A model generated the notes under the pieces. The model made no database searches and had not been told where the DNA came from. It saw nothing but the letters and a program-made list of their open reading frames with translations. Below are positions 1-54,654 of a stretch of 54,842 nt of DNA, piece by piece. Both the position numbers and the translations under genes were made by a program. The first letter of the stretch is position 1. Each line of letters opens with the position of its first letter. This DNA is from Fonticella tunisiensis (lineage in GTDB: Bacteria > Bacillota > Clostridia > Clostridiales > Caloramatoraceae): positions 1-54,842 of the forward strand of contig NZ_SOAZ01000020.1 of assembly GCF_004364155.1 (NCBI RefSeq), given 5' to 3'.

Positions 1-16
1 AATAAATCTTTATCGT

Positions 17-91
17 TCCATGGTAGCTCAATGGTGGAGCATCCGGCTGTTAACCGGAGGGTTGGAGGTTCGAGTCCTCTCCATGGAGCCA
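17..91 (+). tRNA. tRNA-Asn (anticodon GTT)
   Basis: This is a complete cloverleaf. The acceptor strand TCCATGG (17-23) pairs with CCATGGA (81-87), followed by discriminator G88 and an encoded CCA (89-91). The anticodon stem TCCGG/CCGGA encloses a seven-base loop with GTT at 49-51, which reads Asn codons. The T loop carries the usual TTCGAGT. A T-rich tract follows directly and probably terminates the transcript. The start of the transcription unit is at or outside the left edge of the window. The gene heads an array of degenerate tRNA-like repeats. Confidence 0.95.
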
Positions 92-361
92 TTTTTATTT
101 TTTTGAATACAATGTTGTCGCAAACCGGCAGTTCAACGGTCGGATTGGATGTTAGGTCCTCTCCATGGAGCCATTTTATTTTTTGAATGCAATGTTGTCG
201 CAAGCCGGCCGTTCAACGGTCGGGTTGGAGGCTTAGGTGCTCTCCATGGAGCCAATTTTATTTTTTGAAACAATAGTGTCGCAAGCCGGCCGTTCAACGG
301 TCGGGTTGGAGGCTTAGGTCCTCTCCATGGAGCCATTTTATTTTTTGCATATAAATGTCGT
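92..361 (+). repeat. Tandem array of degenerate tRNA-Asn-like units, about 81 bp each
   Basis: Three consecutive units end at 173, 254 and 335, and a fourth begins at 336 and breaks off near 361. Each unit has a T-rich start, a decayed D-arm-like stretch, a CCGGCCGTTCAACGGTCGG hairpin where the anticodon arm should be, and a 3' segment ending CTCTCCATGGAGCCA that matches the last 15 bases of the intact tRNA-Asn. The 5' acceptor strand is replaced by a T-rich tract and the T loop reads CTTAGGT instead of TTCGAGT, so these units should not be functional tRNAs. They look like tandemly amplified tRNA pseudogenes or repeated attachment-site remnants. The antisense reading frame over 133-336 is a by-product of the repeats. 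Confidence 0.85.
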
Positions 362-380
362 AATTAGTTTGACAATATCC

Positions 381-630
381 TGCTTTTTCTGCTAAGAAAG
401 CGGAGATAAAAAATATATGAAATTCACATAAAGCGAGCATCTAGAAGTTCTAGGCGAAGGGATGCAGAGAAATCCTAGAACTTTCGTGACTTAAGCAAGG
501 CGAGTTTAATGAAAGTTCTTGATTTTTCAAATACCGAGCCTTAGAACTTCTTTGCTAGGCGCACTGGTGAATGAAATATATTTTTTATCGCAGCGTTCTT
601 TGAAAGCGAAAACCAGCATGACGAGTTGGC
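381..630 (+). repeat. Foldback intergenic repeat, copy 1
   Basis: The left end (GCGGAGATAAAAAATATATG near 400-419) and the right end (ATATATTTTTTATCGCAGCG near 577-596) are inverted copies of each other, and the similarity continues outward to TGCT at 381 and AGCA near 615. Inside, AGAAGTTCTAGG pairs with a later TAGAACTTCT, and AGAACTTTC pairs with GAAAGTTCT around an apical core related to GTGTTTAAGCAAAGCGAGTT. It lies inside the tRNA-like array, separating its third complete unit from the last degenerate unit. Other copies are annotated below. No protein is encoded. Confidence 0.75.
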
Positions 631-669
631 TTAGGAATGAAATTTTTACAAACTTTAGAAGCATAGATT

Positions 670-740
670 AGATGCGATGTTGTTGCAAGCCAGCCGTTCA
701 ACAGTCGGTCTGGAGTTTAGGTCCTCTCTATGGGGCCTTT
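670..740 (+). repeat. Fourth degenerate tRNA-Asn-like unit
   Basis: This is one more diverged copy of the 81-bp tRNA-like unit. It contains GCGATGTTGTTGCAAGCC, a degenerate CCAGCCGTTCAACAGTCGG hairpin and a 3' part (GGTCCTCTCTATGGGGCC) in which the acceptor-like end has further substitutions and the CCA is lost. A T-rich tract follows. Together with the truncated unit at 336-361 it brackets foldback copy 1, which suggests the foldback element was inserted into an existing array. Confidence 0.7.
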
Positions 741-821
741 TTTATTTTTTGTACGTTTGTTTGTTTCCTTGAAACATATAGTATAATAAATATATGGAAA
801 ATAATATGAAGAGGTGGTCGC

Positions 822-1109
822 ATGTTAACTCACGTTGTGCTCTTTAAACTGAAGGATAGAAGCCCCGAAACTTTAAACAAAGTTAAGGAGCTTTTAATGA
901 ACCTTGAGGGAAAAATACCACAGCTTAAGTACATAGAGGTAGGAATTGACATACTTCATTCTGAAAGATCCTATGATATTTCATTAATTACCAGATTTGA
1001 TTCCCTTGAGGATATGCAGGCTTATCAGGTGCATCCTGCACATGTTGAGGTTTTGAACTTCCTGTCAACAGTTAGAGAATCTTCAGTGGCAGTTGATTAT
1101 AATTCATAG
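822..1109 (+). CDS. Dabb-family (stress-responsive alpha/beta barrel) protein
   Basis: This 95-residue protein has the layout of the Dabb (stress-responsive A/B barrel) family: an N-terminal strand MLTHVVLFKLKD, a helix, a second strand pair and a conserved HPAHVEVL segment around residues 71-78. Members form dimeric ferredoxin-like barrels; many are uncharacterised and some bind small hydrophobic ligands. The start is supported by GAGGTGG upstream. A possible -10 (TATAAT) lies near 782. It stands alone between the tRNA-like array and a convergent DNA glycosylase gene. Family assignment is firm; substrate and role cannot be inferred. Confidence 0.85.
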   Translation: MLTHVVLFKLKDRSPETLNKVKELLMNLEGKIPQLKYIEVGIDILHSERSYDISLITRFDSLEDMQAYQVHPAHVEVLNFLSTVRESSVAVDYNS

Positions 1110-1146
1110 AGTTAAATTTAACGCTATGGGTGCAATAGGCTTCAAT

Positions 1147-1192
1147 GAAAAAGCCCCTGGATAGAAGGCCTTCCTTCTATTCATGGGGCTTT
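1147..1192. terminator. Bidirectional terminator between the Dabb gene and mpg
   Basis: A long hairpin with arms AAAGCCCC...GGGGCTTT and an inner AGAAGG/CCTTCT stem lies between convergent genes. It overlaps the last codons of the glycosylase gene on the minus strand. Confidence 0.75.
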
Positions 1193-1803
1193 GACACATA
1201 CATGTTTCCCTTTATATAAAACCTCCATAGATAGTCCCGGGCTTCCTCAGCATAGTCTATATTTATTCTTGGTGAACGGGCTATTGTAAAGTTCTCATTA
1301 AACTCGGGTTCCATTATATAGAGCCTATCTCCTAACAGGTCGTCGCCGTTGTTGTCCCTTGTGATTCCCATTGCACTGCACAGTTTCCCGGGGCCGTTTG
1401 TGAGATTTTTAATCTGGAATTTTGTAAGATCATTATAATCCTTTTTAAACCTGTTTCTAGCCATTTCTTCAATGCCCTTTACAGGTTCAACAGCCCTTAT
1501 TAAAACCCCATGTGGAACATCCTTTTTAGCGGTTATTACATTCATGCAGTAGTACATTCCATAAATTATATACACATATGCGTATCCTCCAGGGCCATAC
1601 ATAACTTCATTTCTTTCTGTTCTCCTGTTGTTATATGAATGGGCTGCCTTATCATGGGGTCCCATATATGCTTCAACTTCAACGATTTTTCCTACAAGCT
1701 CCTTTCCATCAACGACGTGAATCAGATATTTGCCAAGAAGATCCGGTGCCACCTCGAGGCTGGCTCTCATATAAAATTCACGGGGAAGTTTATTCAATGT
1801 CAT
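1177..1803 (-). CDS. DNA-3-methyladenine glycosylase (AAG/MPG family)
   Basis: This base-excision repair enzyme removes alkylated purines such as 3-methyladenine. The family signature is clear: the VEVEAYMGP segment holds the glutamate that activates the catalytic water in the AAG family, followed by [18 protein letters not shown], the [13 protein letters not shown] strand that carries intercalating and base-pocket residues, and [12 protein letters not shown]. At about 208 residues it is a full-length bacterial member. The start is uncertain: ATG at 1803 sits very close to the GAGGTGAT ribosome site, a TTG at 1797 has better spacing, and a GTG at 1806 is also in frame. The end of the gene lies within the shared terminator hairpin. 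Confidence 0.92.
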
Positions 1804-1857
1804 CACCTCGTATTGTTGTTTGATAAGTTCACCTGTTGGCTAGTTCATTATCTCTCC

Positions 1858-1912
1858 AAACATATTTTTAGCGCAGCATTTTCTAAAGCTAAAATCAGCA
1901 CATTTAATTAAA
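1858..1912 (+). repeat. Fragment of the foldback repeat (right end only)
   Basis: The segment ATATTTTTAGCGCAGCATTTTCTAAAGC...ATCAGCACATTTAATTAA resembles the right end of foldback copy 1 (ATATTTTTTATCGCAGCG...AACCAGCA). No matching left half is recognisable, so this is a decayed remnant. It makes up part of the 230-bp gap upstream of the next gene, where I see no other feature. Confidence 0.5.
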
Positions 1913-2041
1913 TTATACTATTATTATAATCGCTTCACATCATATATATAATCACTGACAAAGCCATAAAACAGGTATTAAGAATTGAAATAAGTAGAAA
2001 ACTAACATATGAAAATTTGAAAAACTAAGGAAGGTGAAGGT

Positions 2042-6069: not shown

Positions 6070-6472
6070 AATTAACTCGATGTGCTAGATAAATTTACAG
6101 ATCGACTCTTAGCCTCTGAACTAGCTATACATGAAACAAAATTCGCCACAATATTATGAAAACAGTTTCTAGATTAATCTGTTGTTTCAGTTCAAAAACT
6201 AAAGCGGAGATAAAAATATATGCAGGCCGCATTTTAGCAAGCAATTAGAAGTTCTTGGCACATAGGATGAAGCAGAGCCTTAGAAGGGTTCGTGGTGTTT
6301 GAGCGAGAGCAAGTTCATAAGCCTACTTAGGCTGTGCGAATCCGGTGCCATAGAACTTCTTTGCGAAGCGTAGCAGCGGCTGAAATATATTTTTTATCGC
6401 AGCGCCAGTCTGTAGATATTTTCTGCATTTTTTTCAACGGACTTTTCAGAGTAGTAGCACAACAAGTTAATT
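6070..6472 (+). repeat. Foldback intergenic repeat, copy 3 (long or composite)
   Basis: The outer left end (TTAACTCGATGTGCTAGATA from 6072) is an inverted version of the family right end, and the right edge is GCACAACAAGTTAATT (6457-6472). The usual core starts near 6202 with AGCGGAGATAAAAATATATG and ends with ATATATTTTTTATCGCAGCG. Inside, AGAAGTTCTTGGCAC pairs with GTGCCATAGAACTTCT, and GCAGAGCCT pairs with AGGCTGTGC around the apical core. The extra bases 6107-6195 are not seen in other copies, so this may be a nested or composite element. It fills the gap between nrdJ and the convergent methyltransferase gene. Confidence 0.7.
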
Positions 6473-8239: not shown

Positions 8240-8488
8240 TTACTTCGAAGAAGCAAGATAAAGTAATATATGAAATTCAAATTGAGGGAGCAAGTTGGAG
8301 TTTTTGGTGAGTGGATAGCTGAAAAGCCAAAACAGAGTCCGTAGTGTTTAAGCAAAGCGAGTTTTAAAAGTTCGCTTGGCTTGTCAGCTATCCCGGGCCT
8401 TAGAACTTCTTTGCAAAACGTACTGGTGAATGAAATGTATTTTTTATCGCAGCGCCGATCTATAAATTTATCTGGCACAACAAGTTAA
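8240..8488 (+). repeat. Foldback intergenic repeat, copy 4
   Basis: The left part AAAGTAATATATGAAATTCA (8260-8279) mirrors the right part TGAATGAAATGTATTTTTTA. The right terminus GGCACAACAAGTTAA ends at 8488, two bases before the stop codon of tgl on the other strand. The inner stem is strong: GGATAGCTGA plus AAGCCAA pairs with TTGGCTT plus TCAGCTATCC around the apical core GTGTTTAAGCAAAGCGAGTT. The minus-strand reading frame over 8098-8478 is a by-product of this repeat. Bases 7916-8239 upstream show no gene. Confidence 0.75.
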
Positions 8489-15863: not shown

Positions 15864-16035
15864 AATTAACTTGTTGTGCCAGTTTCAATTTAAGCTTATA
15901 AGCCAAACAACCAAAAGTTTCAGGATTTTTCTGCATCCCTTCGCCTAGAACTTCTTTGTGAAGCGTACTGATGAATGAAATATATTTTTTATCTTAGCGC
16001 CGGTCTATAAATTTATCTAGCACAACAAGTTAATT
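15864..16035 (+). repeat. Foldback intergenic repeat, copy 5 (clean termini)
   Basis: This copy has the clearest ends: AATTAACTTGTTGTGC (15864-15879) and GCACAACAAGTTAATT (16020-16035) are a perfect 16-bp terminal inverted repeat. The left internal half is missing, but the right half is typical (CGCCTAGAACTTCTTTGTGA, then TGAATGAAATATATTTTTTA). The element is 172 bp, so it is probably an internal deletion derivative. It lies between the kinase-like gene and the pst operon. Confidence 0.8.
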
Positions 16036-17140: not shown

Positions 17141-17335
17141 TTTTTATAAACAAGAGGAGATAAAAATATATAAAATTCATATTTAGCGAGCAATAGGAAT
17201 TTTTCTGTAACTTCACTGCACAAACCTATTGGTGAATGAAATATATTTTTTATCGCAGCGTCGTTATATATATATTTTCTGCTTTTATTCCAATGGGCTT
17301 TTCAGAGTAGCGCAACGAATTAATTTATTTAGTAA
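17141..17335 (+). repeat. Foldback intergenic repeat, copy 6 (short)
   Basis: GATAAAAATATATAAAATTCA (from 17159) mirrors TGAATGAAATATATTTTTTA (from 17232). The short inner stem AATAGG...CCTATT replaces the long stems of other copies, and the apical core is lost. The right end CGCAACGAATTAATT ends at 17335 and, with TTTCTGCTTTTATTCC before it, resembles the right end of copy 3. It sits between the two pstS genes, so the gap of 376 bp holds this repeat plus the upstream region of the second copy. Confidence 0.65.
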
Positions 17336-29250: not shown

Positions 29251-29382
29251 ATGTACTGGTATCCTTACTACCCATATTACGGAGGTTACCCATACTACGG
29301 GGGTTACCCATATTGGGGCTGGGGCGCAAATTGGGGACTTCCATTCCTTGAAGGTTTTCTGCTAGGTGGGCTGCTGTTCTAA
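29251..29382 (+). CDS. Tyr/Gly/Pro-rich small protein, spore-coat-like
   Basis: This 43-codon gene begins ATG at 29251 behind a perfect AAGGAGG seven bases upstream. The product is built of YYPYYGG-type repeats (MYWYPYYPYYGGYPYYGGYP), then a Trp/Gly segment and a hydrophobic GFLLGGLLF tail. Such tyrosine- and glycine-rich peptides are typical of Firmicutes spore coats, where tyrosines cross-link, but I cannot assign a family. It is a monocistronic unit with its own terminator, placed before ctsR. A spore function is inferred from composition only. Confidence 0.7.
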   Translation: MYWYPYYPYYGGYPYYGGYPYWGWGANWGLPFLEGFLLGGLLF

Positions 29383-34293: not shown

Positions 34294-35658
34294 ATGGCTA
34301 AGATAAAAACGGTTTTTGTATGTCAGGAGTGCGGCTATGCATCACCTAAATGGATGGGTAAATGCCCTGGCTGTGGAAGCTGGAATAGTATGGTTGAAGA
34401 AATTGAAGATAGGGATAAGGATAGAAATCCTGTTTTAAATATAGAAACTACAAGGCCCCTTACAATAGATGAGATAGAGATTACCGATGAAGAAAGGTAC
34501 ACTACCTGTATGGAGGAGCTTGACAGAGTTCTGGGTGGAGGGATAGTTAGGGGCTCCCTTATACTGGTTGGAGGAGATCCGGGTATAGGTAAATCAACCC
34601 TTCTTCTGCAGGTATCTAAAAATATCTCATCAACCGGTAAAACTGTATTATATATATCGGGTGAAGAGTCTGCCAAGCAGATTAAGATAAGGGCGGAGAG
34701 GCTTAAAGTCGCTGCTCAAAAGCTTTTCATAGTTTCTGAAACAAACCTCTCTATAATTGAAAAGTATATATCTGATATAAGCCCCCATGTGGTGATAATA
34801 GACTCTGTTCAGACTGTGTATAGGCCAGAGCTGCAGTCAGCACCAGGGAGTGTAAGCCAGGTAAGGGAGGCAACGTCATCCATAATGCGTATAGCTAAAA
34901 ATTTAAATACTTCTGTATTCATTGTAGGTCATGTTACCAAGGAAGGCTCCATAGCAGGGCCGAGGGTACTGGAGCATATGGTTGATACAGTTTTATACTT
35001 CGAAGGTGAAAGGCATCATGCATACAGGATAATAAGAGCAGTGAAAAACAGATTCGGTTCGACAAATGAAATAGGCATTTTTGAAATGAAGGGAACAGGA
35101 CTTGAGGAAGTTAAAAACCCATCTGAGATGCTTCTTTCCGGAAGGCCTGAAGGTGTGCCGGGATCTGTTGTTGTGTCAAGCCTTGAAGGAACAAGGCCCA
35201 TGCTGGTTGAAATTCAAGCACTTGTTTCTGCAACGAGCTTTGGAATGCCAAGGAGAATGGCAACTGGAATTGACTATAACAGAGTTGTGCTCCTTATGGC
35301 AGTTCTTGAGAAAAGGGTAGGGATGCAGCTTCAAACCTTTGATGCTTACGTTAACGTTGCAGGGGGACTGAAGCTTGATGAGCCTGCCTGTGACCTTGGC
35401 ATTGCATGTTCAATAGCCTCAAGTTTTAGAAATATACCTATAGATCCTAAAACAGTTGTTATAGGCGAGGTTGGTTTAACGGGGGAAATAAGGGGCGTAA
35501 ACTTCATAGAAAAGAGAATTTTGGAGGCCCAAAAACTTGGATTTTCAAAATGTGTTGTACCTAAGGAAAACCTGAAGGGTATAGAAATACCTGAAGGAAT
35601 ACAAATATCACCAGTGGAAAATATATACGAAGCATTAGATGAAGTGCTGGGGGGGTAA
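34294..35658 (+). CDS. radA: DNA repair protein RadA (Sms)
   Basis: RadA is a RecA-like helicase for branched recombination intermediates. The 454-residue protein has an N-terminal zinc finger ([19 protein letters not shown], about 10-29), Walker [11 protein letters not shown], the RadA-specific [11 protein letters not shown], and a C-terminal Lon-protease-like domain. It starts at ATG behind GGGAAGTG and sits with disA three bases downstream, an arrangement consistent with the known functional link between RadA and DisA. Confidence 0.96.
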
Positions 35659-49278: not shown

Positions 49279-49285
49279 ATCAAAA

Positions 49286-49516
49286 AAAGCATTGAAGGGA
49301 AAGAGTAGGGGAGGAGTTCATTTAAGAGAGAAGCTGTCAATGGCTGAGAGCAGCTTTAATGAATATTTCCGAAGGTGCGTCCCGGAGCTTCTCTATTGAA
49401 ACCATTAGATAGAGACGGATAAACCGTTATATTTTTGAGTGAGGCCTTTGCCTAATTAGAGTGGAACCACGGAGAGCCCTTCGTCTCTAAATCGAGATGA
49501 AGGGCTTTTTTACATA
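49286..49516 (+). promoter_or_regulatory. T-box riboswitch of cysS
   Basis: This is a leader of about 230 nt that senses uncharged tRNA. The specifier region contains GGTGCGTCC, with TGC matching a cysteine codon. The conserved T-box AATTAGAGTGGAACCACGG (49454-49472) and the terminator AGCCCTTCGTCTC/GAGATGAAGGGCT with T-run (49474-49511) are complete. Uncharged tRNA-Cys would switch it to the antiterminator and turn on cysS-mrnC. Confidence 0.93.
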
Positions 49517-49535
49517 GGTGGAAAGGAGAATGGAT

Positions 49536-50939
49536 ATGGGTATTAAGATCTATAATACTATGACAAGAAAAAAAGAAGAATTTGTTCCTGTTACTTCAGG
49601 CGAGGTTAAGATGTATGTATGTGGCCCTACTGTGTACAACTTCTTTCATATAGGAAATGCAAGAACCTTTATCGTATTTGATACCGTAAGAAGGTATTTC
49701 GAGTACAGGGGGTACAGGGTGAAATTCATTCAGAATTTTACCGACATCGATGATAAGCTTATTAAAAAGGCCAATGAGAAAGGTACAACTGTTAAGGAAG
49801 TGGCAGAGAGATTTATTGAGGAATATTACAAGGATGCAGATGCATTAAAACTTAAGCGAGCAACTGTAAATCCAAAGGCAACTGAGCATATTAATGAAAT
49901 AATAAAATTTATAAAGGATCTTGAGGATAAGGGATATGCCTATGCTGTAGATGGGGATGTATTCTTTAGAACTAAAAAGTTCAAAGAGTATGGAAAGCTT
50001 TCACATCAAAATATAGATGAACTTGAGTCAGGAAGCAGAATTGAGGTTGATGAAAGAAAGGAAGACCCACTGGATTTTGTACTGTGGAAGTCACAAAAGC
50101 CTGGAGAGCCTGGATGGGAGAGCCCATGGGGAGTTGGAAGACCGGGATGGCATATAGAGTGCTCCGCTATGGCAAGCAGCCTGCTTGGAGAAACGATAGA
50201 TATTCATGGAGGTGGAGCTGACCTTGCCTTTCCACATCATGAAAATGAAATTGCCCAGAGTGAGGCAAGGAGCGGCAAACCCTTTGCAAACTACTGGATG
50301 CATGTAGCCTTTTTGAACGTAAACAATCAGAAAATGTCAAAATCCACAGGAAACTTTTTTACTGCAAGGGAAATACTTGAAAAGTATGATTCAGAGGTTG
50401 TAAGGCTTTTTATGATTTCAGGGCATTATAGAAATCCAATAAACTTCAGCATAGAACTTTTAGATCAGGCAAAGTCAGCCCTTGAAAGGCTCTATAACTC
50501 TGTAAATCATCTAGAGTACATTATAGAGGCTGCACAGGACAGAGAACTTACAGATGAGGAAAGGGATTTTGCAAATAAGCTTGACGGATACAGGGAAAGG
50601 TACATTGAGGTTATGGATGATGACTTTAACACAGCTGATGCTTCATCGGTTCTTTTTGATATAGTAAGGGATGTTAATATCTTTATAAAAGAATCCACGG
50701 CAAAATCCCTTGCTGAAAAGGCCCTTGGTCTTTTAAGGGAGCTTGGCCAGCCCCTTGGAATACTTCAAAGGAGCACAAAGGGGGAACTTGATGAGGAAAT
50801 TCAAAGGTTGGTTGAAGAAAGGCAGAAGGCGAGAAAGGAAAAGAACTTTGCCCTTGCAGATAAAATAAGGGATGAGCTTAAGGCAAGGGGAATTATTCTT
50901 GAAGATACTCCACAGGGAGTTAGATGGAAGAGGGTATGA
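49536..50939 (+). CDS. cysS: Cysteine--tRNA ligase
   Basis: CysS charges tRNA-Cys. The 467-residue class I enzyme has the [19 protein letters not shown] motif with a zinc-ligand Cys near the start, [10 protein letters not shown] with another ligand, and [11 protein letters not shown] at 49536 is chosen because AAAGGAG is seven bases ahead; an ATG at 49530 and a GTG at 49518 lie too close to or before it. Expression is controlled by the T-box upstream, and mrnC follows seven bases after the stop. Confidence 0.95.
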
Positions 50940-54578: not shown

Positions 54579-54654
54579 GCCCATGTAGCTCAGTCGGCAG
54601 AGCGTCACCTTGGTAAGGTGGAGGTCACCGGTTCAATCCCGGTCATGGGCTCCA
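54579..54654 (+). tRNA. tRNA-Thr (anticodon GGT)
   Basis: GCCCATG (54579-54585) pairs with CATGGGC (54644-54650), followed by T and encoded CCA. The anticodon stem TCACC/GGTGG holds the loop TTGGTAA with GGT, and the T loop has TTCAATC. It lies between sigH and tuf, probably in one transcript with tuf. Confidence 0.95.

Follow-up and report, generated by a model that had tools for sequence, protein, structure and literature searches.

A tandem array of decayed tRNA-Asn copies behind a tRNA-Asn gene of Fonticella tunisiensis

The stretch of DNA analysed here (the window; 54,842 nucleotides, contig C20 of a 3.10-Mb draft genome in 64 contigs) opens with an intact tRNA-Asn gene, behind which stand units of about 81 bp that are collinear with this gene from its D-loop through its anticodon arm. 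By its anatomy, this array is of the same type as the tRNA-linked repeats (TLRs) of E. coli. A second array of three units (C7_1 to C7_3) lies on contig C7 and a solitary unit on contig C2, such that seven of the eight units are found behind a tRNA-Asn gene, one of these past an unrelated palindromic element, and only the C2 unit is without a tRNA. We consider it probable that the units arose by tandem duplication from inside the tRNA gene and decayed, that recombination has since homogenised them, and that the block as a whole was copied.

Anatomy of the array and its relation to tRNA-Asn

The features of the C20 locus, in which the borders of units 1-3 were set by their CCA ends, are as follows.

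17-91, + strand: intact tRNA-Asn (GTT), the source of the repeat (ARAGORN; Rfam tRNA, 68 bits)
92-173, + strand: unit 1, 82 bp, a T-rich head plus a diverged tRNA copy from D-loop to CCA
174-254, + strand: unit 2, 81 bp
255-335, + strand: unit 3, 81 bp
336-365, + strand: may be the head of one more unit, cut short (tentative)
398-595, + strand: core of the palindromic element (dispersed, MITE-like) that separates units 3 and 4
658-738, + strand: unit 4, the most decayed copy, CCA lost, ending in GGGGCCT
719-748, + strand: terminator-like hairpin formed from the end of unit 4, with a T-rich tail

The tRNA gene starts 16 bases from the start of the contig. That it is intact and followed by tandem copies of about 81 bp, as the original prediction had it, was confirmed by ARAGORN, Rfam and Tandem Repeats Finder, the last of which places a period-81 array at 59-351 (score 459). 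The span first given to the array, 17-740, takes in about 320 bp that are not tRNA-like, including the palindromic element between units 3 and 4. With respect to 336-365, its counterparts at C2 and C7 look like unit heads, with scores that are matched by 3-11 and 56-96 of 2000 shuffles, respectively, but 336-365 of the window itself does not (492-618 of 2000).

Each 81-bp unit consists of a T-rich head of about 16 bases and 65 bases that align to tRNA positions 13-75, with single-base insertions ahead of the anticodon arm and within its loop. A T-rich trailer is usual behind tRNA-Asn: in 24 of 33 tRNA-Asn genes from 29 loci of relatives, at least 9 of the first 12 nt after CCA are T. When the alignment to the 5′ part of the tRNA was anchored on the 3′ half, units 1-3 and the three C7 units scored above all 300 dinucleotide shuffles, and the scores of unit 4 and the C2 unit were reached by 1 and 8 of 300, respectively. 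Free local alignment of the 5′ part was weaker, the scores of units 1-3 being reached by 25, 54 and 46 of 5000 shuffles, and it was not significant for unit 4 (4121 of 5000). The exact 3′ suffix held in common with the tRNA amounts to 18, 15, 18 and 0 nt in C20 units 1-4, to 18, 33 and 18 nt in the three C7 units and to 16 nt in the C2 unit, so that exactly 18 nt recur in four of the seven tRNA-linked units. The perfect palindrome CTCCATGGAG is kept in seven of the eight units.

These data support the view of the units as tandemly amplified, decayed copies of tRNA-Asn, and amend it in several respects. The 5′ acceptor strand is missing, as proposed, and the 3′ end including CCA is indeed kept in the three adjacent units, but not in unit 4. 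The anticodon arm, thought to have been replaced, is instead diverged within a collinear copy, and the T loop is altered rather than lost: six of the seven tRNA-linked units have the variant TTAGGT, and unit C7_2 carries the tRNA's own T arm and last 33 bases. As for the strong GC hairpin described in place of the anticodon arm, unit 3 clearly folds better than its shuffles (z −2.8) and unit 2 does so somewhat (z −1.6), but units 1 and 4 and the three C7 units do not (z −0.6 to +0.4). When all eight units were made to follow the anticodon-like and T stems (with the C2 row shifted 3′ by one base too many), none of the 12 candidate pairs had changed on both sides, and 87.4% of cells were paired as against 88.1% in shuffles, both being low-power figures from eight similar sequences. 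We therefore rejected an anticodon-arm hairpin as a conserved feature, since most units fold no better than shuffles and no compensatory change supports it.

By the cloverleaf standard, the units are not functional tRNAs. ARAGORN calls tRNAs in the window at 17-91 and 54579-54654 only, and an Rfam search of 1-800 to E 5 matched no unit and returned the gene as its sole tRNA row, beside seven weak rows (best E 0.55) that are all far under their gathering scores. A check of the array with tRNA models had been suggested at the outset, and the two models used here see the gene and miss the units; likewise, a genome-wide Rfam tRNA search, in which 150 of 230 candidates were scored, has no unit among its hits. 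The units do not appear to encode a protein either. We do not regard a minus-strand ORF at 133-336 (67 aa) as a gene. A similar frame (MAPWRG..PPTRPLN..) runs open across two C7 units and breaks at the 80-bp unit; because 81 is divisible by 3 and the units are alike, such open frames are to be expected from the repeats. The first five genes searched behind the C20 array are Dabb, MPG, one without a family, an Rce1-like protease and ribonucleotide reductase.

It is in its 3′ ends and its location that the array matches the TLRs. According to PMC8144298, tail repeats behind E. coli tRNA and 5S genes have been described since 1978, and their function is mostly unknown; K-12 has 22 TLRs at ten loci, one to five at each, in tRNA and rRNA operons; their last 18-19 bp are the 3′ end of the gene upstream; and an early functional claim for one of them was withdrawn. 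Like the tyrV tail repeats with rttR and tpr (PMC8144298), the units described here stand in tandem behind a tRNA and end in about 18-19 nt of the exact 3′ end of the gene, to be precise 18 nt in four of the eight units, 33 in one and 16, 15 and 0 in the others. Seven of the eight also lie behind a gene of a tRNA or rRNA operon, and the units number within one to five per locus. At tyrV of MG1655, as we checked directly, the last 19 bases of the gene occur four times, the gene itself counted, in exact copies spaced 178 bp apart; the period here is 81 bp instead. The unit body is, moreover, itself tRNA-derived, the phylum is a different one, and Rfam, searched to E 5 on 1-800, gave no rtT row. 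The likeness of the array to the E. coli repeats is one of anatomy. We presume an origin independent of the E. coli TLRs.

The second array, the solitary unit and other genomes

A DNA search of the whole genome with 92-360 returned six places, namely the query itself, the window tRNA, unit 4, the C7 array (in two rows) and C2:200182-200265. On C7 the order is 23S end, 5S, a second 5S-like copy, tRNA-Asn, three units and then the palindromic element, and the gene searched beyond this array is an alkaline phosphatase. An alignment of window positions 1-663 with C7 has 614 identical columns out of 683, and the C7 tRNA is preceded by the same 16 bases with which the window opens, so the C20 and C7 loci represent a single block in two copies. 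An rRNA operon upstream of the window is what we infer, as the contig begins at this point. The solitary unit has no tRNA within its 2.5-kb stretch; it adjoins a copy of the palindromic element, in a stretch with a Mur-ligase gene on one side and lgt on the other, and our guess is that it travelled with this element. Had the repeats occurred at many loci away from any tRNA, their likeness to tRNA might have been incidental, as the original prediction cautioned; since only one of three loci lacks a tRNA, this likeness is not refuted.

The unit 5′ part plus head, sought in 17 genomes of the family (12 of them at least 90% complete), was found in its own genome only. In 225 genomes of the order, a pattern of two Asn-type 3′ ends 57-87 bp apart, covering one acceptor type only, matched this genome and G105, where the match consists of three true tRNA-Asn genes. 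A further exact, same-strand 15-nt copy of the 3′ end outside a tRNA was present for none of 37 encoded-CCA tRNA genes at 29 loci of relatives. Among 46 of the genome's own encoded-CCA tRNA genes (from the window, the C7 locus and 30 other loci; 74 tRNA hits over the cut-off), the two tRNA-Asn genes alone had an extra exact 3′ copy. A tail survey of genome contigs took in two encoded-CCA tRNA genes. Neither a degenerate unit pattern in genome and viral contigs nor a DNA search of plasmids gave a match, the own genome possibly being excluded from both. Of 12 loci from relatives scanned with Rfam, 16S lies near tRNA-Asn in six and 5S precedes it in three; the place of tRNA-Asn relative to rRNA genes thus varies.

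Origin of the units and alternative explanations

The six units adjacent to their tRNA depart from it at 12-17 of 65 positions; 10-12 of these changes fall in the 33 positions of the 5′ part and 0-6 in the 32 of the 3′ part. When the units are compared with one another, two from one locus differ at a mean of 4.7 of 65 positions (6 pairs) and two from different loci at a mean of 5.7 (9 pairs), the same-position pairs of C20 and C7 differing by 7, 7 and 4. This supports the earlier suggestion that the array is recent or homogenised, in that the likeness of the units would be upheld by homogenisation or by recent turnover. Units 2 and 3, singled out as almost identical, do differ by only 3 of 65 positions outside the T-rich head, but they are not special, as C7_1 and C7_3 differ by 2 of 65. 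Unit C7_2 looks converted from the 3′ half of the tRNA, as a conversion tract would. Judged from the alignments, the better-kept 3′ part would be explained equally well by gene conversion and by selection for a signal at the 3′ end, be it for processing or for termination.

The course of events that we favor can be outlined as follows. An early tandem duplication would have copied the segment from the D-loop to about 16 nt past CCA, that is, including the T-rich trailer, behind the tRNA-Asn gene, whereupon slippage or unequal crossing-over would have multiplied this segment with a period of 81 bp. Since the duplication left out the 5′ acceptor strand, none of the copies could have served as a tRNA, and they would have decayed. 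Recombination would have kept the copies of both loci alike, converting C7_2 from the tRNA 3′ half, and the palindromic dispersed element would have come to sit in or behind the array. The block is now present at two places, one of which is certainly an rRNA-operon tail, and one unit lies beside the element at a third. Any transcription of the units would stem from read-through of the rRNA-tRNA-Asn transcript, and they are probably devoid of function.

Among the alternatives, processed small RNAs come first, though we hold them to be unlikely. The rRNA-tRNA read-through would then be cut at the repeated 3′ ends into products tied to growth rate, as has been proposed for RrA, RrB and RrF. This would be in keeping with the position of the C7 array at an rRNA-operon tail, with the preserved 3′ ends and with the E. 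coli precedent, in which three TLRs behind 5S yield short RNAs that bind Hfq and CsrA and the repeated 3′ end is the proposed processing signal (both in PMC8144298). However, the eight similar units display no covariation (at low power), most of them fold no better than shuffles, none has an Rfam match, and they are absent from the 16 other family genomes searched.

Alternatively, the tRNA 3′ arm and T-rich tract of each unit might serve as serial terminators that stop read-through of a strong operon. A T-rich stretch does stand behind every unit, the end of unit 4 does form a terminator-like site, and a trailer of this kind follows the 24 of 33 tRNA-Asn genes of relatives counted above. Yet such sites do not exceed chance, with 2 found (the unit 4 end and unit 2) versus 1.8 expected in window 1-2000 and 0 versus 2.4 at the C7 locus, and we consider this role quite improbable.

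tRNA 3′ ends are common attachment sites, and the original prediction accordingly entertained the units as remnants of repeated integration. We think this very improbable, and reject attachment-site remnants, for several reasons. The period of 81 bp is fixed and has the tRNA's own trailer inside the unit, which points to tandem duplication, and the alignment to the tRNA is collinear. In addition, a search for PF00589, to which tyrosine and not serine recombinases belong, found none on C20 or C7, and there is no integrase gene among the array neighbours searched. Five tyrosine recombinases passed the cut-off elsewhere (two on C5 and one each on C6, C2:157242-157805 and C42), with a weak match on C21; the one on C2 lies about 42 kb from the solitary unit.

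Least credible of all would be decoys of tRNA-Asn that engage processing enzymes or T-box leaders through the kept GTT, CCA and self-complementary CTCCATGGAG, since, for all the retention of the latter in seven of eight units and the 23 T-box leaders over the cut-off in this genome, the units are without a 5′ acceptor strand and are not recognised as tRNAs. A small-RNA or decoy function, as originally considered, finds no positive support in this analysis and is unlikely.

rRNA-operon tails and the palindromic element

Copies of the gene just upstream are found at more than one tail in this genome: of 5S at four of the five visible tails and of tRNA-Asn at one tail and the window locus. Five contigs show the 5S 3′ end. 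A diverged 5S copy follows at 127 bp on C7, C47, C56 and C42, whereas the rRNA-operon tail of C43 has no second copy; the first 5S copies on C42, C43, C47 and C56 are cut by the contig ends.

L007 2210-2325, − strand: second 5S copy of C7 (38.7 bits versus 105.5 for 5S)
L218, L219 and L220 (the last on contig C42): the other diverged second 5S copies, 127 bp behind 5S

The second copy on C7 matches 5S in 93 of 120 columns and seems, by eye, to be without the 5′ strand of the outer helix. The exact 5S 3′ end retained in the second copy measures 23 nt at C7 and C56, 5 at C47 and 4 at C42. Relative to C7 and C47, the two versions of helix IV are swapped between the first and second copy at C42 and C56, which may be read as a sign of exchange between 5S copies. 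Given these swaps and the diverged copies at four of five tails, tails in this genome do gain and recombine copies; and since helix IV can still fold in either 5S version, the copies at tails need not lack a function. On sequence grounds, the diverged second 5S could be either a decayed copy or a divergent working 5S. The three loci of relatives that reach 5S have a single 5S each. As a separate observation, the inter-tRNA spacers of C42 resemble, by eye, the 23S-5S spacer of C7 (the GTCTGACTTC.. and CAGAAGTCAGAGGTGAGAG.. stretches), perhaps through a dispersed repeat.

Like RrA, RrB and RrF, which stand behind 5S in three E. coli rRNA operons, the second copy on C7 occupies an rRNA-operon tail and carries a copied 5S 3′ end; unlike them, it resembles 5S over its whole length. 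One could extend this likeness to the idea that rRNA-operon tails here carry 3′-end-preserving copies that are read through and that the ordinary machinery of 3′ processing cuts into growth-coupled small RNAs, making up an independent Gram-positive counterpart of TLR/RrB, but to this we give little credence. The foldable helix IV, the better-kept 3′ part of the units and the weaker free local alignment of their 5′ part count against regarding the units as debris left by duplication. Taken together, a separate array from a distant phylum, with a repeat body visibly built of the tRNA itself, supports the view that TLRs can originate by duplication from within a gene, and offers a second system for asking whether useful small RNAs come from the read-through of stable-RNA operons.

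The palindromic element has a core of 198 bp (RNA fold z −9.1) and recurs at 39 or more other places in the genome that are 91-95% identical to 398-595 (40 of 233-235 candidates scored). The class of MITE-like palindromic dispersed repeats would describe it and may explain why the C2 unit lies beside a copy; the element is no part of the tRNA array. In 30 copies that we inspected, at least two outer shells occur and some copies mix shell sides, and those at the arrays match neither shell. The cores at C20, C7 and C2 are not mutual nearest relatives among the 30 (distances of 0.065 for C20-C7, 0.045 from C20 to its nearest and 0.106 for C7-C2), so that their likeness alone is no proof of block copying after insertion; this is shown instead by the linker between unit 3 and the core which, along with a match beyond the core, is common to all three loci.

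Forty-two matches of about 30-60 bp (76-93% identical) to the ends of the element occur in G002, a genome of the same family (e.g., at L212), which suggests a related element family that differs in its middle. The window itself contains further relatives of the element, diverged or partial, at 2852-2896, 6201-6404, 8256-8454, 15914-15999 and 17152-17261. Elsewhere in the window, a T-box leader (49283-49491) precedes a cysteinyl-tRNA synthetase-type gene (49518-50939), and two short tandem repeats of period 18 are found at 29269-29314 (2.6 copies) and 35570-35607 (2.1 copies).
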